The notes under the pieces: model-generated
What the model was told of the DNA's origin: nothing
Database searches by the model: none
The model's input: only the letters and a program-made list of their open reading frames with translations
Source of the DNA: Agelas oroides
Lineage: Eukaryota > Porifera > Demospongiae > Agelasida > Agelasidae
DNA: 64,000 bases
Assembly: GCA_949130485.1 (NCBI GenBank)
Contig: OX422184.1
Span: 16,640,324 to 16,704,323, forward strand
Direction: 5' to 3'
Part shown: piece by piece, positions 1,150 to 57,331 of the stretch
Position numbering within the stretch: the first letter of the stretch is position 1
Layout: each line of letters opens with the position of its first letter
Made by a program: the position numbers and the translations under genes

Positions 1150-1416
1150 CTTGTGGTGGCAAGTATTGTTTCACCATTGTTGCTGCTCTCTCCTCTCCAC
1201 TCTCGTAAAGTGCTGTGCCTAACTGCCCCCATGAAGGACCGGGGTGAGTGTTGACCCAATATCTTCCAAGTTCGAGGCGCTTTTCCATCTCAGTGGATGA
1301 CTGCTCCTTGATCTCCTGTCGCTTGGAGGATGGAACATTGAGCCAATCTCCCACCATCCTCCACTCCTGCACCTTCCCCATCACCTCCAACACCCTGTCT
1401 ACTGTCAAGGAAGGGT
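1150..1416 (-). CDS. Death-domain exon (copy 1)
   Basis: Single exon of 267 bp on the minus strand encoding about 89 residues with the pattern of a Death domain. It begins DPSLTVDRVLEVMGKV, continues with an EWRMVGDWL-type helix 1-2 region and a Lys/Glu-rich middle, then the LGRYW and WGQLG helix motifs typical of the fold, and ends MVKQYLPPQG. The acceptor is a good pyrimidine tract ending CAG next to 1416, and the donor is GTATGTGA next to 1150. Both flanking introns are phase 1, so the exon is a symmetrical module that can be duplicated or skipped without a frameshift. Death domains mediate homotypic interactions in innate immunity and cell-death signalling; the partner here is unknown. 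It has a sister exon at 15977-16243, from which it differs at about 17 residues, and a more distant relative at 36076-36354. The gene probably continues to the left of the window. Confidence 0.75.
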
Positions 1417-2239
1417 CTGAGGGAGAGACACAAGCAGAAGGGGAGAACAGTGAAGAGTATACAACATTCATTCCAGTCAATCAGGTCCTCAACTTCATGC
1501 TAACTGAGCAGGAACACACTGTGATCTGAATCCTGATGTACACTGATGACATTGAAATGCACTGTCACACACTCATCTTGGACTTGTACGCTTAATCGCA
1601 CAATGTCTTTGACTAATGAAGTTACTCAAATCATGTCATGTGACAACGTGCTACAACAGTAGAACCCTAATTATCCACTGAGACATTCTAACACAATCTC
1701 CACTCCCAATTTATCTTCCCATAAAATAGTAATGGCAATGTACTCTACTTAATTGTATCCTAGAGCCTGTAATGTGTGCTTTATGAGAACATGAAGGTGT
1801 GCTGCACACAGTAAGGTAGGCATGGACATGGCTACTTTCTTGAGAGACTGGTACTAATTGTTATCAAACTTTAGGGTGCCTCTGGCTTTCTTGGGGCAGA
1901 GGGAGAGGGGGTATAATACACTATTTCCTCCCACTTAGTAGCCTCGTTACTAGGTTAATTTCCTCTTTCAGCAGGAAGAGCCTGGTAACATCTATAATGC
2001 AAAGCCTGGGTACGAGGTTTGTACAACACTTGCTGCCCACTGGGAGACTGAGGGAAGGGGGGAGTGAGGGGTGGGGTGGAGGGGAGAGGGAGGACATATA
2101 CACTAGGAGACTGAGAGGAGGCGACTTACTTAGTTGCTATAGTGACTCATGTTGACAGTACAAATTGGAAATTACATGTGACAATGGCTTACAATTCATT
2201 TACACAACAACAATGAACAGGCACCTGTGTGTGAGTATG

Positions 2240-4270
2240 ATAATGACCTTTTGCAAAAAGACATGGCTAACACTTATGGTGTGGTTATGTGGCATTTTGA
2301 TAGCCTAAACAACTTAATATGGGAGTCTTCAGCAAATACTAAACAGCTCTGTCAGTTTGCAAGTTTCTTCATGTACGTGTAACCACATACCATGGAAATT
2401 TTGGTGTAGTCATGTTATGCAGTGATTAATGCATGGTGAAACATTAGCTATAAGAATTATTGTGTCAGTTTAATAGTTTTATTCCCTAGCTAATGTATGT
2501 AGTACCAATCAATCAGAAACTAGACTCGCATGTTTAATCACATGATATCAGCCTTGAGCCAATAATTACATCACATGACATCAGCCTTCAGCCAATGGGG
2601 TTCTCACATGGGATCATGTGACAGCATACTAAAAGAGTAGCTGCCCAATTCAATTCTAATATCAATTTCTCTGCCCCAATTTTTAGTCTTGTGCCCAGCC
2701 TGCGCGCACTTCCCTGCGAGAAACAGTCTGGTGACCAAAGCCAAATTTCTTGGGCTTATTCCCAAAAAGTGGTTGGTAAGGACCAATGAGATTGCAAAGT
2801 TTGTAACTATCACTTACTTTCCTAACAACATGTAAAATAATTTTATCTCTATTCGAGCATCTGTAATTTTTCTTGAGTGGGTTGGGCGCAAAAAGTTTTG
2901 AACATTGTTACACTGTCGCAAGAGCATGTGCTAGCCCAAGAAGTTCGACTTGGTTCACCAGACCATTTTTCCTCTTGAGGGGGTGGGATCTGGGGACGAG
3001 ATTTTTTCTCAAATATATATAGTGTGATGAAGGCAAGGAATGCACACTTAGTTATCTAATACACCGAGTGCACCATAAAATGATGAGGCTGTTTTGTTGA
3101 TACAAAAGCTGACAAGTACATTCATAAGCAGATGTTAATGTTAACACGCTTAACTGAGCATGCGTTTAGTTCATTGGCATCCTTGGAGGGAAGCCATAGG
3201 ATGAGGTTCACTACTTCGATCTACTTAGCTGCTACTAGCCTTGCTCCCAGGTGACGTCCTGGCTGTCCAGTTTTTGGTTGCTTGAAATACGCAAAAAGGA
3301 AGGGGATGAAGCCTTGGAGCATCTACGTACCATATAATTTCTAATAATTCATACTAATTTCAATTTTAGCTATATGATTTGGTTAAAGAACGAAAATCAC
3401 CAAATATTCGGAGAAAGAGGGGGTATATGAATAGAGCATTTGTACAATAGTGACCCTTTCAAAACGACATGGCTAATAATTATGGTTACACCAATTTTAT
3501 GTGGCATTTTGATAGCCTACAGAACTTAATATGGGGCCCTGAGCAGACAGTATTCCTAAAGTATGGAGTCTATGATGGGTGCTATATTGTACCCATTCCC
3601 ATAAAAGCACTCCTACCCTACACTAAACAGCTCGGGCATTTTGCGAGTTTCTTAACCGCACACCATGCACATTTTGGTGTAGTCATGCTGTGTGGTGATT
3701 CATGCATGGTGAATTAATGTCTTTTTCATGGTTTTATCACCTAGCACAGTAGTAGCAATCACTCAGAAACTAGACTTGCATGTTTAATCACATGACATCA
3801 GCCTTCAGTCAATAATCACACCACATGACATCAGCCTTCAGCCAATGAGGCTTCTTACACGAGGCCATGTAACAGCATATGTAGTAAAAGAGGAGTAGCT
3901 GGCTGCGTAATTACATTCCAATATCATCTTCTCTACCCTAAAATCTCCCACAAAGATAGTGTGATGAAGGCAAGGAGTACACACTAACAGTTAACCAATA
4001 CACTGAGTGCAGCATAAGATGATGAGGCTGTAAAGCAGACAAGTACATTCATAAGCAGATGTTACTAATAACACACTTAACTGAGCATGCATCTAAGTTC
4101 ATTGGCTTCCTTGGGGGAAAGCCATAGGGTGAGGCCCACTACTTTCTCCTACTTATATCTGTTACTAGCCTCTCCCAGACATTCTCACTGTCCAGGTTGT
4201 GGTTACTTGTAGTACGTATGCAAAAATGAAGGGGGAAGGCCTGGGAGCATTTATCATGTGAATGACATCA
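2240..4270. repeat. Internal duplication within copy 1 (about 1.2 kb period)
   Basis: The stretch from about 2245 reappears at about 3455: GACATGGCTAA followed by the GTGGCATTTTGATAGCC motif, then the CATGACATCAGCCTTCAG motif. The stretch near 3000-3300 reappears at about 3950-4230 (AGTGTGATGAAGGCAAGGA). The same internal duplication is present in copy 2 (about 17090-19070). Copy 3 has only one version (about 30190-30930). No gene is apparent. Confidence 0.6.
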
Positions 4271-4599
4271 GTGTCTATCCCTACAGGGTTGTAGGTACAC
4301 AGAAGGGGGGAGGGGCCTTCGAATGAAAAAGCATGTTGAGGCCTTTTCTTGCAGTATTGATCTGTGTGTTGGAGTTCTGAGTGTTCGTGAAGTGAAAGAG
4401 TTGCCGCTTGTGGTACAGCACGAAGAGTGTGAGCGCGAAATGCACTCTTTTCTTCAGGGGCCCCTCCCGCCTCTGTCTACCTAGGTAGACACAGCAAGCA
4501 TCAAAAACTGCTACAGTGACTCATGCTGATAGTGCAATGTACATTTGGCTTCTGCAAAGTTATGTTCACATTACAGTGAGCAGTGCACAGATAGTGGTC

Positions 4600-7479: not shown

Positions 7480-9158
7480 AGAGCTCTGTACTAATGATCC
7501 TTTTTTTGTTTAAATCAACTGTAAGGCCTTCTATACTATTATTCCAGATTTTAGTTACTACAACTATATTGGAAATTGAATGTGATTTGTCTAAATTGAA
7601 TGTTGCAGTTAAGATGAAGCTTACATGTAGCAGCTGAAAATTAAAGTTGAGAGTTTAGTGCTACGTACTTCGTACATGTAGCTAAACACTGAGGAGAAGT
7701 CTACTACACACCATGCACACCTGTTACTGTGTGTGACATACGGTATGAGCATACCCAATGCTCACAAAATTATGCACATACCAGCAAATGCTGCAATCTC
7801 GTCACCTAAATATATTCATATTAATATACTGTCAACTGGGGAGAAAAGTACCCATCAGTTACAAAGTACCCTATGAACATATCAAAACAGTTGCTATCAG
7901 TCTCCTGAATAGTAGCACCCATGCGAACATAAGCACCTATGAATACTAGAACCAATCAGCTCATAAAATGTGACTGGTCTGGGGGCGGAGTTTCATCGAA
8001 GACTAAACGTAGCCAGCTGTTCCACAGTAGACAAGCAGTCCACTCTAGCAGCAGCTTTGTTGGTACTGCAGCATCCCAACAACTGTTTTTGCAGTGCTGT
8101 GTATTTAGCCCCGTGGTATGATAGCCCATGAGTACCCTACGTGATCGGTACTGCAAAAATGTGTAATCTTGAAATAGAAGTACCAGTAATTATGCTCCCG
8201 AGTTTACAGTACACTATTTGGGTATCAAAATTATCATACAAATCTTGCACCACCACAGCTATTTCTTAGCCACGCCTTTATGCTATTAGTGAGTGTGCAA
8301 ACATAAGGGGAAGAGGTCAGGTATAATCAATCATCACACACGTGGCACTATGATGTTCACTAAGTGACAGATGGGAATTCTTGATCGTACGTAGTTTGCA
8401 AATAAAATGTGATGACTGGCATTGATTGTTTGGGGTTGTGTGTACTAAGTACTTGAGTGGGTATGGCTCATTGGCTTCTGGTGGGGGAAGCCATAGGGTG
8501 TGGTACACTATTTCCTCTTAGTTGTTACAGTGACCCATGGTGACAGTACAATGTATACAAAACGTTGGCTAATGACAGTTTACTGTGACAACACTGACAT
8601 CTTCCTACCTACTTTAAGCCTACGTACCTACATGCGGTTCCTACAGCAACGAGGGCTAAGTGTCGGTGAATATTTTATAGCGTCCTGAATTTATTATGCT
8701 CACTAACACACCTCCCACTTTCTACGCTAGATTCAGTCTAAAGTGGGAGGAGGGTTTACTCAATTAGTCCCACTATATACCCCAAACAGAGGTGCTACAT
8801 AAACTATAGAACCTTCTGGATTCTGTTGGTACTTCCAAAAAAAGCATGTATACGATACTTGGTAGGAACAGGAAAGGATTCAATCCTAGAAAGGTGGTAT
8901 GTATGCTGGGGGGAAGGCTAACACTCAAAGGGCGTTTACTAGCCAAGTGTCAATGGTTATAGTACACTCAGCAGCGGTATAATGCCTTATACCACACTAC
9001 ATCACTTTCTACATATTTCGTTGGACGAACAGCAGAGTATAACGAGTCATATACTCCTATTATGTGTAAATAATAGTACTTGTACCAGAATAGTTTACAT
9101 GTTGTACCAGAATAGTTTGCACATGTCGTACGAGAATAATTTACACAAATTGAGATAC

Positions 9159-15976: not shown

Positions 15977-16243
15977 CTTGTGGTGGCAAGTATTGTTTCA
16001 CCATCATTGCTGCTCTCTCCTCTCTTGTCCCGTAAAATACTCTGCCTAACTGCTCCAATGAAGGATCAGGGTGAGTGTTGACCCAATATCTTCCAAGTTC
16101 GAGGCACTTTTCCATCTCAGTGGATGACTGCTCCTCGATCTCATCTAGCTTTGAACTTGGGACAACAAGCTCCTCTCCCACCATCCTCCACTCCTGTACC
16201 TTCCCCATCACCTCCAGCACCCTGTCTACTGTCAAGGAAGGGT
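15977..16243 (-). CDS. Death-domain exon (copy 2)
   Basis: A 267-bp minus-strand exon with the same length, intron phases (1-1) and splice signals as its sister at 1150-1416. It starts DPSLTVDRVLEVMGKV, has WRMVGEELVVPSSK in place of WRMVGDWLNVPSSK, and then EQLGRVFYGTREERAA in place of GQLGTALYESGEERAA. Conserved residues are those expected in the helical core (LGRYW, QLG). Changed residues are clustered and often charge-altering. About 30 of 267 bases differ from copy 1, whereas the intron on the acceptor side is nearly identical. It is probably an exon of a minus-strand gene that also uses the exons at 36076-36354 and 1150-1416, or of a separate tandem paralogue. No in-frame stop interrupts it. 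Confidence 0.75.
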
Positions 16244-19200
16244 CTGAGGGAGAGACACAAGCAGAAGGGGAGAACAGTGAAGGGTAAACAACATTGTATT
16301 CATTCCAGTCAATCAGGTCCTCAACTTCATGCTAACTGAGCAGGAACACACTGTGATCTGAATCCTGATGTACACTGATGACATTGAAATGCACTGTCAC
16401 ACACTCATCTTGGACTTGTACGCTTAATCGCACAATGTCTTTGACTAATGAAGTTACTCAAATCATGTCATGTGACAGCGTGCTACAACAGTAGAACCCT
16501 AATTATCCACTGAGACATTCTAACACAATCTCCACTCCCAATTTATCTTCCCATAAAATAGTAATGGCAATGTACTCTACTTAATTGTATCCTAGAGCCT
16601 GTAATGTGTGCTTTATGAGAACATGAAGGTGTGCTGCACACAGTAAGGTAGGCATGGACATGGCTACTTTCTTGAGAGACTGGTACTAATTGTTATCAAA
16701 CTTTAGGGTGCCTCGGGCTTTTTTGGGGCAGAGGGAGAGGGGGTGTAATACACTATTTCCTCCCACTTAGTAGCCTCGTTACTAGGTTAATTTCCTCTTT
16801 CAGCAGGAAGAGGCTGGTAACATCTATAATACAAAGCCTGGGTACGAGGTTTGTACCACACTTGCTGCCCACTGGGAGACTGAGGGAAGGGGGGAGTGAG
16901 GGGTGGGGTGGAGGGGAGAGGGAGGACATATACACTAGGAGACTGAGAGGAGGCGACTTACTTAGTTGCTATAGTGACTCATGTTGACAGTGTAAATGTA
17001 CACAAATTGGAAATTACATGTGACAATGGCTTACAATTCATTTACACAACAATAATGAACAGGCACCTGTGCGTGAGTACGATAATGACCTTTTGCAAAA
17101 AGACATGGCTAACACTTATTATGGTGTGGTTATGTGGGATTTTGATAGCCTAAACAACTTAATATGGGAGTCTTCAGCAAATACTAAACAGCTCTGTCAG
17201 TTTGCGAGTTTCTTCATGTACGTGTAACCACATACCATGGAAATTTTGGTGTAGTCATGTTATGCAGTGATTCATGCATGGTGAAACATTAGCTATAAGA
17301 ATTATTGTGTCAGTTTAATAGTTTTACTCCCTAGCTAATGTATGTAGTACCAATCAATCAGAAACTAGACTCGCATGTTTAATCACATGATATCAGCCTT
17401 GAGCCAATAATTACATCACATGACATCAGCCTTCAGCCAATGGGGTTCTCACATGGGATCATGTGACAGCATACTAAAAGAGTAGCTGCCCAATTCAATT
17501 CTAATATCAATTTCTCTGCACCAATTTTTAGTCTTGTGCCCAGCCTGCGCGCACTTCCCTGCGAGAAACAGTCTGGTGACCAAAGCCAAATTTCTTGGGC
17601 TTATTCCCAAAAAGTGGTTGGTAAGGACCAATGAGATTGCAAGGTTTGTAACTATCACTTACTTTCCTAACAACATGTAAAATAATTTTATCTCTATTCG
17701 AGCATCTGTAATTTTTCTTGAGTGGGTTGGGCGCAAAGAGTTTTGAACATTGTTACACTGTCGCAAGAGCATGTGCTAGCCCAAGAAGTTCGACTTGGTT
17801 CACCAGACCATTTTTCCTCGTGAGGGGGTGGGATCTGGGGACGAGATTTTTTCTCAAATATATAGTGTGATGAAGGCAAGGAATGCACACTTAGTTATCT
17901 AATACACCGAGTGCACCATAAAATGATGAGGCTGTTTTGTTGATACAAAAGCTGACAAGTACGTACATTCATAAGCAGATGCTAATGTTAACAAGCTTAA
18001 CTGAGCATGTGTTTAGTTCATTGGCATTCTTGGAGGGAAGCCATAGGATGAGGTTCACTACCTCTATCTACTTAGCTGCTACTAGCCTTGCTCCCAGGTG
18101 ACGTCCTTGCTGTCCAGTTTTTGGGTGCTTGAAATATGCAAAAAGGAAGGGGATGAAGCCTTGGAGCATCTACGTACCATATAATTTCTAATAATTCATA
18201 CTAATTTCAATTTTAGCTATATGATTTGGTTAAAGAACGAAAATTACCAAATATTCCGAGAAAAAGGGGGTATATGAATAGAGCATTTGTACAATAGTGA
18301 CCCTTTCAAAACGACATGGCTAATAATTATGGTTACACCAATTTTATGTGGCATTTTGATAGCCTAAAGAACTTAATATGGGGCCCTGAGCAGACAGTAT
18401 TCCTAAAGTATGGAGTCTATGATGGGTGCTATATTGCACCCATTCCAATAAAAGCACTCATACCCTACACTAAACAGCTCGGTCATTTTGCGAGTTTCTT
18501 AACCGCACACCATGCAAATTTTGGTGTAGTCATGCTGTGTGGTGATTCATGCATGGTGAATTAATGTCTTTTTCATGGTTTTATCCCCTAGCACAGTAGT
18601 AGCAATCACTCAGAAACTAGACTTGCATCTTTAATCACATGACATCAGCCTTCAGCCAATGAGGCTTCTTACATGAGGCCATGTAACAGCATATGTAGTA
18701 AAAGAGGAGTAGCTGGTTGCGTAATTACATTCCAATATCATCTTCTCTACCCTAAAATCTCCCACAAAGATAGTGTGATGATGGCAAGGAGTACACACTA
18801 ACAGTTAACCAATACACTGAGTGCAGCATAAGATGATGAGGCTGTAAAGCAGACAAGTACATTCATAAGCAGATGTTACTAATGACACACTTAACTGAGC
18901 ATGCATCTACGTTCATTGGCTTCCTTCCTTGGGGGAAGCCATAGGGTGAGGTCCACTACTTTCTCCTACCTATATCTGTTATTAGCCTCTCCCAGGAATT
19001 CTCACTGTCCATGTTTTGGTTACTTGTAGTACGTATGCAAAAATAAAGGGGGAAGGCCTGGGAGCATTTATCATGTCAATGACATCAGTGTCTACCTACA
19101 GGGTTGTAGGTACACAGAAGGGGAGAGGGGCCTTTGAATGAAAAAGCACGTTGAGGCCTTTTCTTGCAGTATTGATCTGTGGGTTGGAGTTCTGAGTGTT

Positions 19201-19380
19201 CGTGAAGTGAAAGAGTTGCCGCTTGCTGTACAGGACGAACAGCGTGAGCGTGAAATGCACTCGTTCCTTCAGGGGTCCCTCCCACCTTCTGTCTACCTAG
19301 GTAGATGCAGCAAGCATCAAAAACTGCTACAGTGACTCATGCTGATAGTGCAATGTACATTTGGCTTCTGCAAAGTTATG

Positions 19381-20843: not shown

Positions 20844-21181
20844 AAACCCTGAACTCAGTATGAAAATCATGAGGCTTATGGCCAATAGTAATACTTAAGT
20901 ATGGGGTTCATGATTGGTTACTATATTGCACCCACCCCCTGCAAGCAACCACCCTTCAACTTTTTTACGAGGGTCAAGACATGTAACTGCACACCATGCA
21001 TGGTAAAACATGTGAATCATTAGCTACATGAATTGCAAGTTAGATTGAAGGTTTTATCATTACTGTTGCCAAGCTCATGTACAGTATGTAGCCAATTCAG
21101 CCACTGTAAGTTCTCTGGCAGGTTTGCATGTACTAGTCCATTTGTTTCTTTATCATGCACATACAGTGGAACCCCTCTTAA

Positions 21182-21688
21182 CTCTTTAACAACCGTAGGC
21201 TAGTTACTGGAAGTATTTATTAGGCTATGGATACCTTCCATGGTCCGTATTTTCACTACTGCTTGGAGCTAGCACTGGAAACTTGACTCAAAGCTTTATT
21301 GACACATTCTCTGTAGGTTCGTGACCTTGGACACACCCACTCATTAGCGAGCGTTCAATAGTCAGGGCCCTCCAACTAGAGAACGCTCCTACGGACTAAA
21401 AGCTGCCTAAAATGCCAGAAATGGAGTCCCTACAAGGTGAAAGGAGCGTTTTCTACACCCGTTTGTTCAAGAAAGCAGACAAATGGCCCACCCGGCATTG
21501 ACCAAGGCTTTTCTACAGGCAGCTGCAACCGCCGCCATGCACTGTCAGCCAGAGCGGTGCACCCACCCACCTCCCCCTGTCCCACCCTTTCTGCTAGCGC
21601 AGAGCCTATCTTCAAAACGGATTGCGCCAACTGATAACATGCGGCCAAAATCTGACGACGCCATATGGCGTCATTGGTTGGTAAAGGG
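21182..21688. mobile_element. TTAA-flanked piggyBac-like MITE, copy A
   Basis: The 507-bp element is bounded on both sides by TTAA (21178-21181 and 21689-21692). The ends are inverted repeats: CTCTTTAACAACC on the left and, inverted from the right end, CCCTTTACCAACC. TTAA target sites and CCC-type ends are the signature of piggyBac-superfamily elements. No transposase is encoded. Copy 1 of the large duplication has an empty TTAA at the matching place (about 6475). Confidence 0.8.
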
Positions 21689-22025
21689 TTAATCAGAGAA
21701 CAAAACCGTCCATAAAGCAGCCATTTAATGATATTCATGAGAACTGTGGGGACAGGTAAGGTCAGGCTGCGTCAAGTAAAGACCTACTGCACAGACTTCG
21801 CTGTCACCAGTCTTTGCATGGCTGTTAATGGCATTCATGACCAACAAATATGCCCAAACATAAAGCTAAAGGACTTTTAATGAGATTCATAGCTTTATGA
21901 TGACATCATGACACACCTGACACGGGTTACAGTCAGTGAAGGGTTAGACAGAGGCCTAAGGCTAAATTCAAGTTTAGCCTGCCAGCTACTTCAAAACTTC
22001 TGACTCCAAATTTCGGCTCACTTAA
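21689..22025. other. Spacer between two identical MITEs
   Basis: About 330 bp bounded by TTAA on both sides, lying between two nearly identical 507-bp elements. I find no counterpart of it in copy 1 of the duplication. It could be carried DNA moved together with the two elements, or part of an earlier insertion. Confidence 0.5.
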
Positions 22026-22532
22026 CTCTTTAACAACCGTAGGCTAGTTACTGGAAGTATTTATTAGGCTATGGATACCTTCCATGGTCCGTATTTTCAC
22101 TACTGCTTGGAGCTAGCACTGGAAACTTGACTCAAAGCTTTATTGACACATTCTCTGTAGGTTCGTGACCTTGGACACACCCACTCATTAGCGAGCGTTC
22201 AATAGTCAGGGCCCTCCAACCAGAGAACGCTCCTACGGACTAAAAGCTGCCTAAAATGCCAGAAATGGAGTCCCTACAAGGTGAAAGGAGCGTTTTCTAC
22301 ACCCGTTTGTGCAAGAAAGCAGACAAATGGCCCACCCGGCATTGACCAAGGCTTTTCTACAGGCAGCCGCAACCGCCGCCATGCACTGTCAGCCAGAGCG
22401 GTGCACCCACCCACCTCCCCCTGTCCCACCCTTTCTGCTAGCGCAGAGCCTATCTTCAAAACGGATTGCGCCAACTGATAACATGCGGCCAAAATCTGAC
22501 GACGCCATATGGCGTCATTGGTTGGTAAAGGG
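22026..22532. mobile_element. TTAA-flanked piggyBac-like MITE, copy B
   Basis: Same length (507 bp), same orientation and same ends as copy A, bounded by TTAA at 22022-22025 and 22533-22536. I count only about three substitutions between the two, so they duplicated very recently or were homogenised. Confidence 0.8.
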
Positions 22533-23773
22533 TTAAACGAAACTCTTGAAATATTGGACACCTGGTTAATCAAGAACACTTGACCGAGTCCCACCTTCAT
22601 ATGTAATTACACATAATATTCTGCCCCTAAAACATGGACACCTCACTAATCAGGACAACTACTTTGGTCCCAACGGTGTGTGTATTAGAGAGTTTCCACT
22701 GCATAACTTTCTCCACCACTGTATGAGCTTGACGTGCATATTTTCTGACTCTGCCTTCATTTCGGTCAGGTCGTGGCAATTAAAACTTCAAGAAACAGAG
22801 AATCAACATCATACACATATCTGGAAGTTGGGTGCAGGTGCTGGCACAAAGATGTTCAGGCACTTCTTCTGTGGAAGTGCCACTATTTTGGTTCTTTGGA
22901 CTAAACTGAGAGTGCCCATGGGTACTTGCCTAGTACAATACAATGGCACCCTCCGTACTTATGAAATAAACTTTTTTTCTCAATCAACTGTAAGGCCCAA
23001 GACTTCTATATTATTAATCCAGATTTTAGTTGCCACAGCTGCTACATGTAAGCTTCATCTTAACGGCAACATTCAATTTAGACAAATCACATTCTGCACT
23101 CAATTTAAGGTCCAAGACTTCTATACTAGATTTTAGTTACCATAATTATATTGCAGAATGTGATTTCTCTAAATTGAATGTTGCAGTTTAGATGAAGCTT
23201 ACATGTAGCAGCTGAAAATTAAAGTTGAGAGATTAGTGCTACATACTTCATACATGTAGCTAAACACTGAGGAGAAGTCTACTACTACTACACACCTTGC
23301 ACACCTGTTACTGTATGTGACATGCGGTATGAGTATACCCACGTAAAATCAATGCTCACAAAATTATGCACATACCAGCAAATGTTGCAATCCCATCACC
23401 TAAATATATTCATATTAATATACTGTCAACTGGCGAGAAAAGTACCCATCAGTTACAAAGTACCCTATGAACATATCAAAACAGTTGCTATCAATCTCCT
23501 GAATAGTAGCACCCATGCGAACATAAGCACCTATGAATACTAGAACCAATCAGCTCATAAAACGTGACTGGTCTGTGGGTGGAGTTTCAACGAAGACTAA
23601 ACATAGCTAGCTGTTCCAGAGTAGACAAGCAGTCCACTCTAGCAGCAGCTCTGTTGGTACTGCGGCATCGCAACAACTGTCTTTGCAGTGCTGTGTATTT
23701 AGCCCCATGGTATGATAGCCCATGATTATAAGTACCCTATGTGATCGGTACTGCAAAAATGCGCATTCTTGAA

Positions 23774-29336: not shown

Positions 29337-30989
29337 GGGAGAGACAAGTAGACACAAGCAGAAGGAGGACAGTGAGGAGTAAACAACATCATATTCATTC
29401 CAGTCAATCAGGTCCTCAACTTCATGCTAACTGAGCAGGAACACACTGCGATCTGAATCCTGATGTACACTGATGACATTGAAATGCACTGTCACACACT
29501 CATCTTGGACTTGTACGCTTAATCACACAATGTCTTTGACTAATGAAGTTACTCAAATCATGTCATGTGACAGCGTGCTACAACAGTAGAACCCTAAATC
29601 TCTACTGAGATATTCTAACACAATCTCCACTCCATATTTCTAACTTCCATAAAATATGTAGTTAATGTGAATGTACTCTACTTGTATCCTTGAGCCTATA
29701 AAGTGTGCATATGAGAGCATGAAGGTGTGCTGCTCACAGTAAGGTAGGCAAGGTTACTTTCTTGAGAGACTGGTACTAATTGTCATCACACTTGAGAATG
29801 CCTCTGGTTTCCTTACACTACTTCCTCCCACTTAGTAGCCTCGTTCCCAAGCTCATTTCCTCTTTCAGCGTGCAGGAAGACGTGGGATTCAAACTGTTGA
29901 CCCGACTGTTACCAGGTTCGTTCCTCTATGAGAGAGAGCATGGGTATGAGGCTCGTACCACACTTCCTGCCCACTAGGAGACTGAGGGAAGAGGAGGTGG
30001 AGGGGTGGGGTGGAGGGGAGAGGGAGGACATACGTACACACTAGGAGACTGAGAGGAGGCCCCTTACTTAGTTGCTATAGTGACTGCTGACAGTGTAAAG
30101 GTATAAACACAAAATCGGATATTACATGTGACAATGGCTCACAATTTATGTACACAACAATAATAAACAGGCAACCTGCACATGAGTACAATAGTGACCC
30201 TTTCAAAACGACATGGCTAATAATTATGGTGATACCAATTTTATGTGGCATTTTGATAGCCTAAAGAACTAAATATGGGAGCCCTGAGCAAATAGTAATC
30301 CTAGAGTATTGAGTCTATGATGGGTGCTATATTGTACCCATTCACATGAAAGCACTCACAGCCCACACTAAACAGCTCGGTCATTTTGTGAGTTTCTCCG
30401 CATATGTGTAACCGTACACCATGCAATTTTTGGTGTAGTCATGCTGTGTGGTGATTCATGCATGGTGAATTAATGTCTTTTTCATGGTTTTATCCCCTAG
30501 CACAGTAGTAGCAATCAATTTAATCACATGACATCAGCCTTCAGCCAATAATCACACCACATGACATCAGCCTTCAGTCAATGAGGCTGCCTAATTACAT
30601 TCCAATATCATCTTCTCTACCCTAAAATCTCCCACAAAGATAGTGTGATGAAGGCAAGGAATACACACTAACAGTTAACCAACACACTGAATGCAGCATA
30701 AGATGATGAGGCTGTAAAGCAGACAAGTACATTCATAAGCAGATGTTACTAATAACACACTTAACTGAGCATGCATCTAAGTTCATTGGCTTCCTTGGGG
30801 TGAAGCCATAGGGTGAGGCCCACTACTTTCTCCTACTTATATCTGTTACTAGCCTCTCCTAGGCATTCTCACTGTCCATGTTTTGGCTACTTGTAGTATG
30901 TATGCAAAAATGAAGGGGGAAGGCCTGGGAGCATGTATCATGTGAATGACATCAGTGTCTACCCCTACAGGGTTGTAGGTACACAAGGG

Positions 30990-36075: not shown

Positions 36076-36354
36076 CTGAGACAGGTTCAGTAAAGTTTCT
36101 AATCTTGTCAGCAATTTTGGTCTCCTCTGCCCAGTCTAGGTTGTATATCAGTGCCCTCCACGATGGTTCTTCATCCCCCTCACCCTGCAGCCAACGATCT
36201 ATCAGAGCACGTAGACGTTCATCATCAGATTGGTATTGTCCTTCAATCTCATTCCGGAAGTCGCTTGGCTGCTTATAGAAAAGCCACTCCCCCAGGTTCC
36301 TCCAGGCTACTCCCTGCACAGCTGTCAGGATGTTCTCCACTGTCAGGGGTGGAG
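36076..36354 (-). CDS. Death-domain exon outside the duplication
   Basis: A 279-bp minus-strand exon, phase 1 at both ends like the two exons in the tandem units. The acceptor is CTCTCCACTCTAG next to 36354 and the donor GTGAGTCA next to 36076. It encodes about 93 residues: PPLTVENILTAVQG, then WRNLGEWLFYKQPSDFRNEI, then RLRALIDRWLQG and a final SWRALIYNLDWAEETKIADK. The order W-x-x-LG-x-WL, the helix ending in LIDRWL, and SWRALI followed by a last helix fit the Death-domain fold. Identity to the other two exons is low, so this module split off long before the tandem duplication. It may be the first Death-domain exon of the minus-strand gene whose start could be near 39243. Confidence 0.75.
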
Positions 36355-41733: not shown

Positions 41734-44700
41734 ATGTCCTATCCCCCTGCTGGAGGCTACCCACTTGGACCGGGAGGCTACCCCCCTCAGCAGCCCCCCG
41801 GCTACCCCCCACCACCTGGAGGTGTGCCATATCCAGGAGGACCACCACCACCACAAGTATGTATGAATCAAATTATGGAGTGAAACCATAAGGCTTACAG
41901 ACAGGAATTGTGACAGGAAATGCAATGTTACATGACTGTTACCGCTGGACTGATTTCGATGAGAAACATCTCCAGTATCTACAGAGCTGTGTCCATGCAT
42001 CATGACACATACCTGAACCACTTGTGAATGGAATTGCATACTGCTGAAATTTGTTTGAAATTGTGTGACATACACTCCATTTCCTCCCTTTCTCCCTTCT
42101 TTCTTCCCTCTCACTTCCCTTGCTTCCCACCCCGCTCCTCTCTCCTTGTTCTCACTGTTCTCCTTTTCCTCATTCCTTCGCTCTCTCCTTCCTTCATTTC
42201 CTTTCCTTTCATTTTCATTCCATTTGTTTCACTTCTTCCCTTTCACCTTGCTTTTTGCCCTTTCTCATTTCTCCTTCCTGCACTTTTCCCCCATCTCCTC
42301 CTCCTTCATTTACTCCCCGCTCACCTTCCCTCTCCCACCACAGAGTGGTCCCTGGATTCCCGGTGTTCCCACTGCTGGTCTCCCTCCCCCACAGCCTGGT
42401 GGCTATGGTATGCCATCTCCTGGAGGTATTGGTTTAAGTACATGCTAGTAGCACAAGTGTATCAACCACATTTTAAATCTGCCTTTGTATCTCAGTCCTG
42501 GAATAACTTGGGAACTTGGTTGTTATACCAATGACTAGCTTTTAGTGTGCACTTGTCCACAACGAACACTTTCCCCAACCATGTTATATACCATGTACCG
42601 TAGTCTCGCAAAGGGCACCCATGGGTGGAGCACCTTACAAGTCTGTCAAAGAGGGTGTAGGCACTCTTTCAAGTGTTTCTGCATGTAACCATGAAAGAGT
42701 GCCCATGTCATATATCCAGCGACTTGACGCCTTCAAACACAAACAGTAAGGTACAATGGAACTGGTGGCGGCTTTGAAGTCAAGTCCTGACGGCACACAA
42801 CACTCTGAACGACAACATATCGCCCGGTGAGCATGGCCAGTGTAGCTAGCGGAAAGTGACCGCATTAGGTATGTTGGCGTCTACGCAAGCAACTGTGTAA
42901 TATACCTTCAATGAAGTCTATAACACAAAGTTTCTTACCTCAGATATGCATAGCACTAAAGGCTGCGCTTCTCAGACTCCACAAGTACTCTTCATTGGCC
43001 ATGCGAAGCTCACTCTGGTTGGGCGCTCATTTGAGTAAACTTTGACCCTATACAGGAAATTGGGCCAAAAGCAGGGGGTGGGGGCTCTTTTGAGGGTGGG
43101 CGCTCTTTCCCGAGACAACGGTAATAGCAAATACTGGTGCCACCAGTTGACCACCAGTGCCAGTTATCAACAACTGATACCTGCCCATACATTACCGAAC
43201 AGCTAGTGAGGATAAGGATCACTCGCTGGTACACATAGCTGGTAGGATGTTGCTGGGCCTCAGAGCTCCTGTCAAATTACTAGAGAACAGCATTCCTTCA
43301 TAAATCAGAAACACATGCCTGTATCTTGCAGACACACTCACAATATTGACTCTGTCATGGTACAATAAATTAAAAAAGCAAATTGTCCTCTACATATGTA
43401 AGCAGCCTACCCTAGCCTCGTTCCCAGGCCTTCCCTGGCTCCAGTTTTTGGTCGCCTCCATTTTTGCATACTGCAAGCGATCATAAACTGGAGCCGGGGA
43501 AGGCCTGGGAACAAGGCTAGCCTACCCCACATTCACATTTGTGTTCTCCTTGGTCATCACTTGGTGACTTGCACTACTAAGTACTTTAGATTGAGACATT
43601 TTTCAACATCATGCAGTTGATAATCAGCCCACCTGCTTTCCCCAGGCATAGGGTTTGATACCGGACCCCCTGGCCCTACGCCCTACCCTACTGCACCCTC
43701 CCAGGGGTACCCTCCTCCTCCTCAAACTCAAGGCTACCCCCCAACTCAGGGTTACCCCCCTCCTGCTCCAACTCAGGGTTACCCCCCTCCTCCCTCTCAA
43801 GGCTACCCCCCTCCCCCGTCCCAAGGTTACCCTCCTCCTCCTGGTGCAGGGTACCCCATGGCTCCACCCACTCACCACACCCAACAAACACCAGGGGGAT
43901 ACAGTGTAAGTTCACCTGCGCACTTCAGTACCTCTTACCTATCTCACCATAATCTCCCGAAAATAAGCCCACCCTCGAAAATACGCCCACCCCCCTTTTT
44001 TGAATGAAGTTGTTGCAAAGGGTGCTTTTCTCTCGAAAGTTCACCCACCTATTTATGCAGCAGTACATGCTGTTATGTTAAGCAAGAAGCACAGAAGAAG
44101 CAGCACTGTGCAAGAGGAGGGACTAACAAATGCAGGCAGACACCATTTGTTGTTATTGCCTAAGCAAGCGCATGACAAAAGAGGTATTGCAGAGCGCTCA
44201 TAACAAGGGCTAGAGGTGGGCGTATTTTTGAGAGAAATATCACAACTCTCGAAAATACACCCATCCCCCTCTTTTAGGAGGCACTTAAGTTCATCGCCCA
44301 TGGCCATATTTTCGAACTAGAGATTATGGTATTTATCTTAGGTAGATCAGCATGTTTCAATGTAACATGTGGCAGCCTATGAATATTGTTCCATCAAGTG
44401 CTTCACCACATTAAAAGCACTGTATCGCTGAATGTCTATTACTCGTTCCCTAGCCTCTTTCCCAGGCCATTAACTAGTTCGTAGTCAACAGCCTGGATAA
44501 GAGGCTACCCGTTCCCAGGCTCTCCCCACTAAGGAGGGGGAGAACAGACACGACTTAGTGACAAGGGGGTGGACCAAAGTCGGCACCCATGCACATTCAA
44601 GCATAAGCACTTTCAAGACTACTACAATCTTTACATTAGATATGACATTAGTGCTACATACCTTTGCCTTTGTAGTTTGTTGTCCACGTAAAAGTAGTCA

Positions 44701-45704
44701 ATTTCTTGAGTCAGTGTCACCAACTTGGTCAATTACAACACTAGCTTACAACATACAGAAGATCACAAAAATTTGTTGCCCTTAAGCCCATCAGGTGCCA
44801 TATCTTCTGACACATTGAGAATCTACATTAGTCTACCATGCGATTTACGGCTGCAGTAGCCAATAATTTTGTGCTATCACATGTGTGTACTTGCCACAAG
44901 CATGGGCTCTGAGCTACGGTTGGCGGACTACCGTGAGTGCCCATGCACAATTAAGTTGTGTCTACCTCATGTCTACCCTTGACATGGTATATGTACATCT
45001 ATGAAGCGTGGGTGTTTCCTGCCCTTACTGTGATACCTCCTTTCTACCCACTCAAGTACCTTCCACATCTCTCTTCACCCCCACCTCCCTGTAACTACAT
45101 CCCTTTTCCCTCACCCCCACACTCTCTCCAACTCTTCCAGACTGCCCCTCCTCCTGTCCCAACTTCTCACACTCATGACTCCAGTGTGCATCGTGTGACC
45201 CACAAGATGGCAGCCACTAGCATCACCAAGGAACATCCACCAAAGGTGAGTTATTACGGTCCATGAACCAATGAATATCATTAGCTCAGGCTCTCCATTT
45301 ATTTTTGTCCTGTTTTTAGCAGTTTTCCAGTTCTTGTGTTTCCACGTCTTTCAGTTGTCGTTGTAATAGTGACAGTCTACCATTTGTGTCTATGTCAGGA
45401 ACCTCCCACAGAAGGCACAGTGAAGCCATATCCTTCTTTCAATGCTGAGGCAGATGCCAAGACTCTCAGAACTGCCATGAAGGGATTTGGTATGCTGATA
45501 ACTATTGATAATTCAACGTATTTGTGTGTGTATACATAGCTATCAACTCTATGTACACACATACGCACATAATCTCCCGAAAACACACACACACACATAC
45601 ACACATAATCGCCCGAAAAAACACACACACACACACATGCACGCACGCACGCACGCATGCATGCACACACACACGCACATGCACTCACAAACACACATGC
45701 TCAC

Positions 45705-45740
<36 letters not shown>

Positions 45741-45882
45741 GCACATAATCTCCCGAAAACACACACACACACATACACACATAATCGCCCGAAAACACAC
45801 ACACACACACACACATGCACGCACGCACGCATGCATGCACACACGCACGCACATGCACACACACACACACATGCTCACATAT

Positions 45883-45927
<45 letters not shown>

Positions 45928-45978
45928 CACACACACACACACACACACACATGCACACACACACACACACACACACAT

Positions 45979-46013
<35 letters not shown>

Positions 46014-47914
46014 CACTGATGAGAAGGCCATCATCAGTGTTCTTGCATACCGGTCCAATGCCCAACGACAAGAGATCAAAGTCAAGTTCAAGACTTTGTA
46101 TGGAAAGGTCAGTGCATAGGGCCTCTTCACTGCCCCTATCCTGAGTGCTTGGCAGATACACAGTAGGCCAGTGAAGCCAGGCCATACTGTCTTTGCATGT
46201 AGTCTTCCGACATGGTAACTTTTCTAGAGTGTTCAAATGCTGTGAAAGCTGGGACATTGATAAGTTTTATCCATTTTCAGTACTCTTACATCCTTTGTTT
46301 CTTTGATGGTGGACCATTAGCGCAATCTTCTTGGCCACATGCATACAAACATTGGCACAGCTTGTTATGTGGATGTTTTGTCTGGCTAAATCCAATTTGT
46401 CCAGACGTGTACAATTGGAGCCATGCATGCCTTGCTGTCTGTAGGACCCCGGAATATGCTGATGGAACTAACACGCAAATCCGTACGGGTTTCAGCTGAA
46501 TTTAGGGTTGAACTAACACTCAGCTTAATTTTGCTGGGAACTAACACACAAATCCGTACATCAAGAAAAAAAATAACATGCAAAATCTGCACGTTAGTAG
46601 CAATTGTAAGTAAGTAACACTCTAACCATACGAGATATGGTGTCCACACGTGCCGCACCTAGTCGAATTACGGTAATCAGACCATGTGTATTGCTGTTTG
46701 CCGCAGCATGCCATGCCGGGACTGTCTCTAGATGTCTTCTGACTGGGAGTAACTATCGAATTTTAAGAATGAAGTGCATAGCGTCGATCAGAAGGCGATT
46801 GTGAAGACGTCTTGGTGCATTCCAGTAACACTCAATTCTGTACAAGATATATACTATAGCTAACAACTAACACTCTAAATTGTACAAAAATGGTGCAAAA
46901 GACGGTACAAGATAGGCCTATTTTGGGAAATGTTTGAGTGTTAGTTCCGTCAGCATATTCCGGGGTCCTCCGTCTGTGCAGTGATCCTGCATGATAGCTT
47001 TTCTGATGTGTTCAAGCACTGCATCTTGACAAAGCTGACTATGAACTAACATAAACTTGGTATGCAGACACATCATGATCTGGCTAAATGTAAATTCAAA
47101 CACATACAATAAGTTTCTCAGTTACTAGAACATTGTACATATTGTACAAACCTGGGCTACCCACAATGAAGAGCACTGAAGTGCTTAACCCTCGGCGCGT
47201 AGTATTAACGCAGAGTCACAGGACATAGCTAAATAGGCGAAGGAAATTCATGTGGTATGATGGTACACTAGATAGCTAGCGAAACAAAGTCGTACAGGAT
47301 AACAGTGTCCCAAGTTGTCCTAGTAGTAGTATCCCTTTATCTTGCCCCAACAACCCCCTCCCTAATGTAGTGAGCATGTGTAGTGAGTAGGGAATGTGTG
47401 GGACATTCCCCGGTACTCCTGGATATGTACCATGCCTGTACCGTCATACATATTGTACCATGCCTGTTACATACATATTGTAGCAGTATTGACCATGCAT
47501 GTACATACATATTGTAACAGTATTGACCATATATGCTTCAAACCGAACGAGGACCGATTTCGCCAAAAACGTTTTGTTCAAGAGTTACGCTGCGATTCGT
47601 TTGCCACGGTGAGCGCTATTCGGCCATATTCTAGTCTGAGAACAAGTTCACGCGCCATGGTCTAGTCTGGGATCCCGGGGAGTACTGCGGCGCTGCGCTG
47701 CACTCCCGGGATCCCAGACCAGGGCGCGTGAACTCATTCTCGGACTAGAATATGGCCGAATAGCGCTCGCCGTGGCAAACGAATCGCAGCGTAACTCTTG
47801 AACAAAACGTTCTTGGCGAAATCGGCTCAATTTAAACACATCCTCGTTCGGTTTGAAGCCTATCTGTGTCCAAACTTCAGAGATTTAGCCGCCAGGTGAG
47901 CCAAGCTAGTTGTA

Positions 47915-56884: not shown

Positions 56885-57331
56885 TTGGAAGCTGGTATTT
56901 AGTGGTACGCGCGAGGTAGCAATTATTGCTACGTGAATGACGTAATCATACGAGCTGCCATTGAGGCCCATAGTGAAAGGTGAAATCGATTTACACAAAC
57001 AGCTCTCGTTTGTTTGGGACGAAACTCACTCAGTAGATGCTGCCAGGTGAGCTCTAGATCGACCGCTATAGCTCTTCCTGATACGCGAAGTATTTGAATG
57101 TTTCCTTGGGAATCCCCGTGGAAAATTTTGCGCGCCGTAAAATGCCATAGCTGTCGATCCAGAGCTCACCTGGTAGTATCCACTGAGCAAGTTTCGTCCC
57201 AAACAAACGAGAGCTGTTTGTGTAAATCGATTTCACCTTTCACTATGGGCCTCAATGGCAGCTCGTATGATTACGTCATTCAAGTAGCAATAATTGCTAC
57301 CTCGCGCGTACCACTAAATACCAGCTTCCAA
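56885..57331. repeat. Inverted repeat with about 170-bp arms
   Basis: Arms 56885-57055 (TTGGAAGCTGGTATTTAGTG to GCCAGGTGAGCTC) and 57162-57331 (GAGCTCACCTGGTAG to CCAGCTTCCAA) are close inverses around a loop of about 106 bp. A 40-bp segment beginning TAGATCGACCGCTATAGCTC occurs directly repeated at 56847 and 57056. Confidence 0.8.

Follow-up and report, generated by a model that had tools for sequence, protein, structure and literature searches.

Rows of Death exons on C2 and C8

The window, i.e., the whole stretch of 64,000 nucleotides under study (C2:16640324-16704323), stems from the sponge Agelas oroides and carries on its minus strand two related exons, here termed Death B exons copy 1 (1150..1416) and copy 2 (15977..16243). 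Copy 1 is read from 1416 to 1150 and comprises 267 bp in phase 1-1 with an intact frame, an acceptor AG at 1417-1418, and a donor GT at 1148-1149; copy 2 likewise has its splice sites and frame. The Pfam Death domain is matched with 26.3 bits (E 8e-6) by copy 2 and with 17.4 bits, i.e., below the cut-off of 22.6 bits, by copy 1, and two of five other B exons score above this value (29.0 and 26.0) and three below it (12.9, 18.9, and 17.2). An AlphaFold model computed from three window sequences has the six-helix Death fold, a single-sequence run being poor (pLDDT 63). The intron block on the acceptor side of copy 1 (1417..4400, minus strand) is near-identical to positions ~16244-19215 in the next unit, and comparison of the units revealed a third one (29340..29811, minus strand) in which the B exon is deleted and the acceptor-side intron retained. 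The domain part of a Death A exon, at 17.2 bits again below the Pfam cut-off, lies at the upstream end of the row (36080..36352, minus strand).

The earlier note on this DNA had spoken of tandem copies. Searches for Death A and Death C place the B exons between these two, in an order A-B(n)-C that is plain from the assembled sequence, and the copies are therefore probably repeated exons of one gene. Contig C2 harbors five such rows, all on the minus strand, with four, one, three, one, and two B exons, and C8 several compact A-B-C rows with one or two. Row I is the one in the window (A at ~36 kb, the exon-less unit at ~29 kb, and B exons at ~16 and ~1.2 kb). Order, strand, and phase suggest that one row represents one gene, whose exons would be spliced into one protein.

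The whole analysis is based on the sequence of one genome assembly (259 Mb, 141 contigs). The searches located 11 close B exons in the same orientation at 16.197-16.656 Mb of C2, where two units without a B exon were also found, and a second subfamily, mainly on C8 with further members on C2, C5, C22, and C117. The 30 loci considered were the top-ranking ones among 77 matches to copy 1, and because only these were cut out, the second subfamily was picked by its similarity to that copy. After exclusion of L011 (the same exon as L010), L021 (stop), and L029 and L030 (stop and frameshift), 26 distinct intact exons of the two subfamilies were used (10 and 16), all of which retain the frame and the splice sites at a length of 264 to 273 bp.

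The identical B exons L011 (C2:16325689) and L010 (C2:16546590) are separated by 220,901 bp, and each has its A and C exons at a similar offset; this reflects either a segmental duplication of recent date or a haplotype that was not purged from the assembly. Three near-identical A-B-C rows at 12.95, 13.61, and 14.20 Mb of C2 (L029, L030, and L051-L053) are distant from the main cluster, and at least two of their B exons carry a stop and a frameshift. The B exon was lost by deletion in L042 (C2:16669673, ~29350 of the window) and L043 (C2:16429373), one each in rows I and III; relative to L038 the deletion spans ~520 bp, with one end near the acceptor.

One C8 gene continues after Death C with a 742-aa exon, which contains a P-loop and the motif DTGGQ, and then with a further Death exon (Pfam E 9e-7). 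The 742-aa exon matches Roc with E 0.005 and COR-A with E 0.003, and an exon of C2 row II matches COR-A with E 8e-4 and Roc with E 0.017, all below the Pfam cut-offs. This GTPase-like exon is present downstream of Death C in rows II-V of C2, the row IV copy containing one stop. In row I, the window's own, the 26 kb past Death C yielded neither the ROC-COR-like nor the last Death exon; for the former, tblastn gave no match with E<1e-3 in C2:16558700-16585000, and none is among the 60 of 268 candidates scored. The gene of row I may hence be damaged or read into the next. At the expected site of its GTPase-like exon lie frames that we take to resemble a reverse transcriptase and a recombinase (L063-L065, C2:16567338-16578791). 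The ROC-COR-like exon has at least 69 matches on C3, C7, C8, C11, C15, and other contigs, with 60 of 268 candidates scored, and these constitute a large GTPase-like family. The last Death domain, compared between two C8 genes only, differs at 4 of ~98 residues. Additional coding exons were sought in the units through comparison across copies and through Pfam (10 open frames), but no clear domain emerged.

The exons as a divergence peak

Between copies 1 and 2 there are 31 differences in 267 bases and 17 in 88 residues, close to the hand counts of the earlier note (~30 of 267 and ~17 of 89), and its estimate of about 1% for the acceptor-side intron agrees with 3 differences in 450 bp at 1417-1866 (35 of 2,182 at 1417-3600). 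The clustering in two patches is reproduced, with 11 differences at 1195-1244 and 13 at 1295-1344, as is the elevated divergence beyond the donor, where 12 of 100 positions at 1050-1149 differ in addition to a 9-base indel; at 695-1049 on this side, 16 of 354 differ. The exon excess of this pair is one-sided, i.e., it runs on beyond the donor and ends at the acceptor. When the ~14.8-kb units were aligned, 1401-4400 was the most uniform stretch (0.5 to 5.5% per 200 bp); most other alignable segments diverge by 2 to 20%, with a few exceeding this range, and a second low stretch is 7601-9000 (2 to 6.5%). Silent divergence of the exon pair amounts to 8 of 56.7 sites (dS 0.156; dN 0.120), which is the upper end of the range along the unit and not beyond it. 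The unit alignment and the silent sites of the exon thus leave two things to explain, a near-identical intron block and a clustered amino acid change.

The peak recurs in other copies. Among the eight core copies of C2 (28 pairs, 25-bp bins), divergence reaches 21 to 27% in patch 1 and 12 to 15% in patch 2, and it is 5 to 6% in the first 50 bp of the intron and mostly 0 to 4% in the following kilobase. The same patches are variable in the 17 loci of the second subfamily. There, 105 of 136 pairs have an intron divergence of at most 4.5% (~150 bp), and in 102 of these 105 the exons are 8.3 to 14.2% apart, the remaining three being near-identical throughout; in the 31 pairs that include L054 or L057, intron divergence is 6.5 to 17%. 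A low flank thus adjoins a high target, as in a divergence peak, whose donor side extends over ~80 bp in subfamily 1.

The stretch of intron with low divergence covers ~3 kb in subfamily 1 and is confined to ~120 bp in subfamily 2. In the acceptor-side intron at 1417-1536, divergence is 1 to 4% within the subfamilies (1% in subfamily 2) and 13% between them. Between subfamilies, these ~120 bp of the window and their counterpart in L044-L060 are more conserved than the silent sites of the framework. Purifying selection on an intronic element, acting in place of homogenization, would fit the narrow extent in subfamily 2 as well as the between-subfamily figures (13% for the 120 bp before the acceptor and 6% for the nearest 40 bp, with a framework pS of 0.43), and since the acceptor-adjacent 120 bp are kept even across subfamilies, constraint contributes there. 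As the cause of the low intron divergence altogether it is unlikely, because the block of subfamily 1 is ~3 kb long and because, within subfamily 2, the 120 bp are 1% apart, i.e., ten times below the between-subfamily figure.

Diversified codons and exchange between copies

The exons of each subfamily have a common framework, and ~14 codons differ among the 26 exons. In copy 1, these lie in hypervariable patch 1 (1307..1366; residues 17-36, before H2, H2, and H3), in a lone variable codon in H4 (1277..1279; residue 46), and in hypervariable patch 2 (1199..1216; residues 67-72, end of H5 and H5-H6 loop); in copy 2, variability and codon site models delimit patch 1 at 16134..16193 and patch 2 at 16026..16043 (all on the minus strand). 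When the subfamilies were ranked separately, their top variable codons overlapped at 8 of 10, 10 of 12, 12 of 14, and 14 of 16 positions (87 columns), with hypergeometric p values from 3e-8 to 2.5e-12 (14 of 16) and a Spearman coefficient of 0.56. Each of the 26 exons has its own string of 14 variable residues.

For the two window exons, dN/dS is 0.77, and this pair by itself lends no support to the diversifying selection proposed in the earlier note; the pairwise value is misleading, since most codons belong to the framework. Across the 26 exons, by contrast, diversifying selection is strongly supported by the codon overlap, by dN/dS, and by site models. Over the whole exon, subfamilies 1 and 2 have dN/dS values of 0.66 and 1.53; at codons picked in the other subfamily the ratio rises to 2.4-3.9 and 2.4-2.9, with framework values of 0.23-0.36 and 0.73-1.09, respectively. 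Comparison of M2a with M1a gave 2dlnL values of 51.6 and 170.1 (107 and 267 on star trees) and of M8 with M8a 51.1 and 169.9, with omega of 7 and 10 for 13% and 20% of the codons. These models were run with a home-made program on fixed tree shapes, and null simulations with three recombined blocks yielded M2a-M1a maxima of 15.4 (36 runs) and 18.3 (12 runs). At the 14 codons, pN is 0.47 and 0.49 within the subfamilies and 0.57 between them, and the framework has 0.04-0.05 within versus 0.21 between subfamilies. B exons of one C8 gene (five pairs) differ at the 14 codons as much (pN 0.45) as exons taken from different genes do (0.49). The exons show positive selection at fixed positions, as do immune repeat modules with concerted and diversifying evolution. 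At the sequence level the B exons are hypervariable, and the same codons have a dN/dS well in excess of 1 in both subfamilies. Distances in patches 1 and 2 are correlated in subfamily 1 (Mantel r 0.42, p 0.03; when two of three near-identical copies are left out, r 0.11, p 0.28) and hardly so in subfamily 2 (r 0.05, p 0.36).

Targeted hypermutation of the patches, germline or somatic, would also pack change into two short patches in both subfamilies, and in subfamily 2 the pS of 0.19 at the 14 codons is above the 0.07 of the framework. We regard it as extremely improbable in place of selection, because third positions change least at these codons (0.21-0.28, compared with 0.47-0.54 at positions 1 and 2), because the pS of subfamily 1 is 0.12 there and 0.18 in the framework, and because codons interspersed among the variable ones stay constant.

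Diversifying selection acting alone on young duplicates, without exchange, would account for dN/dS above 1 at the variable codons. It is a very improbable explanation of the whole pattern, since silent sites of the exon diverge ~10 times as much as the adjoining intron (dS 0.156 in the pair versus <1%) and since silent and intron divergence are unequal across the exons of a gene. Between six C8 genes, the ROC-COR-like exon (500 shared columns; one of the six used only up to its first stop) has a dN/dS of 0.25 and a pS of 0.257, but the B framework a pS of only 0.057 (41 pairs), which is 4.5 times lower. The simplest reading of these sequences is that B exons were copied between the C8 genes while the variable codons stayed different. 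Given the tenfold contrast between silent exon sites and intron, exchange probably homogenized intron and framework, and selection held the variable codons apart. In subfamily 1, the framework pS is 0.15-0.18 and that of the ROC-COR-like exon of three rows 0.072; the framework is thus older than the ROC-COR-like exon, and exchange is visible in the intron and not in the framework. As judged from the alignments, the surroundings of the variable exons are far more alike than the remainder of the genes, and this homogenizing would be due to exchange rather than to another process.

A different role of exchange had been favored in the earlier note, i.e., a conversion tract from another Death paralogue that overwrote one of the window exons. 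Copy 1 indeed looks mosaic, its first part resembling the exon at C2:16604762 and the remainder that at C2:16413130 (permutation p 5.7e-5; 0.02 after multiplication by 339 triplets), and the divergence that continues beyond the donor also speaks for such a tract. In the triplet scan, p<0.05 was obtained for 25 of 339 triplets in subfamily 1 and 76 of 1,680 in subfamily 2, which is about the chance rate. When the eight best triplets were re-run with 400,000 permutations, two remained below 0.05 after correction, both with copy 1 as the mosaic, and the best triplets of subfamily 2 gave no corrected signal. Four PHI tests for recombination found no significant signal (p 0.10-0.84). A donor of the whole exon was not found among the exons located, the nearest paralogues being 15 bases off copy 1 and 18 off copy 2. 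Moreover, a peak that most pairs of both subfamilies have at identical codons cannot come from one event, which also leaves dN/dS above 1 unexplained, so that a single tract is already insufficient as the sole cause and very unlikely as the explanation. The main effect of exchange seems to be the reverse of overwriting, in that intron and framework were made alike.

It is probable that the B exons represent a family with a shared framework and ~14 diversified codons, in which exchange between paralogues homogenizes the rest. Death B exons would accordingly evolve like antibody or LRR modules: strong diversifying selection would act on ~14 codons, which lie within or next to H2, H3, and the H5 end and in one case in H4, and exchange between paralogues, by gene conversion or unequal crossing-over, would hold intron and framework alike. 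Exchanges that erase the variable codons would be disfavored by selection, which would leave the divergence peak on the exon.

Variable faces and comparable systems

On the AlphaFold model, the 14 codons are located in H2 and H3 (four each), in H5 (three), and before H2, in H4, and in the H5-H6 loop (one each), and none is in H1 or H6. In Death assemblies, one half of the type I contact is built from H2 together with H3, H3 also supplies one half of the type III contact, and the H5-H6 loop takes part in type II (PMC7054835, PMC8403095). The selected codons may make up such a binding surface. The variable faces would bind a partner, either another Death domain or a foreign/non-self ligand, with a specificity of its own for each copy, and the ROC-COR-like GTPase and the further Death domain of related genes would relay the signal.

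Death domains, which normally serve cell-death signaling, are usually treated as conserved adaptors, and for the variable part of an immune receptor one would expect an LRR, WD40, Ig, or similar module. In clustered protocadherins, gene conversion partly homogenizes the arrays and the residues of specificity are diversified, in extracellular adhesion domains that are unlike Death. For exon 5 of the red/green opsins, a review describes homogenized introns and an exon with selected differences, i.e., a divergence peak (PMC3924837). B exons likewise stand out over a probably homogenized intron, but the opsin case as described concerns one gene pair and two residues, whereas A. oroides has an exon family with ~14 codons that are different in every copy. 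The Podospora NWD family and other fungal NLR repeats are portrayed in the cited text as near-identical units that evolve in concert, a few sites on the interaction surface being under diversifying selection (PMC4986451). The B exons share the near-identical units, the probable concerted evolution, and the few diversified positions; the modules of the fungal NLRs in that text are WD, TPR, and ANK repeats, whereas here it is the Death domain, normally a signaling part. In brown algal LRR-ROC-COR genes, one exon of constant phase encodes each N-terminal unit and has few diversified sites (PMC11378527). Constant-phase exon units with few diversified sites, ahead of a ROC-COR module or, in related rows here, a ROC-COR-like one, are common to both systems, but the algal LRR exons given there measure 72 bp in phase 2 and the Death exons 264-273 bp in phase 1, and unlike those of the algal genes described, the ROC-COR matches of the Death genes are below the Pfam cut-offs. 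Amphimedon proteins with one to three N-terminal Death-like domains followed by TRADD-N have been reported (PMC8195603), which resemble the present genes in their lineage-specific expansion and in having several Death-like domains in series; the section on these proteins speaks of C-termini that evolve fast, and hypervariable Death domains are not mentioned in it. Among the titles and abstract openings listed by full-text searches of an open library, a scope outside which closed journals lie, none announces such domains.

A wiring code between paralogues and the recognition of foreign or non-self ligands are both compatible with the variable faces. Recognition is the bolder and attractive choice because of its fit to what the cited texts describe for brown algal LRR-ROC-COR exons (PMC11378527) and fungal NLR repeats (PMC4986451). 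Tentatively, and as a possibility rather than an expectation, the genes might be a receptor repertoire in which the Death domain is the variable module that selects the partner or ligand, serving either pathogen/non-self recognition or a private wiring code. Such receptors would consist of a Death row (A, one to four B, and C), the ROC-COR-like switch, and the conserved last Death domain, and every A, B, and C domain would possess its own hypervariable H2-H3 face and B in addition an H5-H6 face. B exons might be used in different combinations. Selection here diversifies the Death domain itself, and in the neighboring A and C exons H2-H3 varies both in sequence and in length. If the faces read foreign or non-self ligands or code the choice of partners, this would be a recognition system that is testable in the living animal.

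In the A and C exons (9 and 8 sequences), variation is greatest at H2-H3. The A set is without L030, with the A exon of the window uncounted and L029 kept, and the C set is without L020 (cut off), L029 (broken), and L051 (near-copy of L030), with the L021 and L030 rows kept (B exon broken). For Death C of L014 versus L015 and L021, the H2-H3 stretch is up to 17 residues longer, with the rest nearly invariant.

Three features of the window lie apart from the Death exons. The second unit contains a 516-bp direct repeat (21177-21692 and 22021-22536), 99.4% identical and 844 bp apart. A proline-rich open frame followed by what we take to be an annexin-repeat-like stretch adjoins the Death row on the plus strand (43624-46119), and the 447 bp at 56885-57331 match their own reverse complement at 88%.
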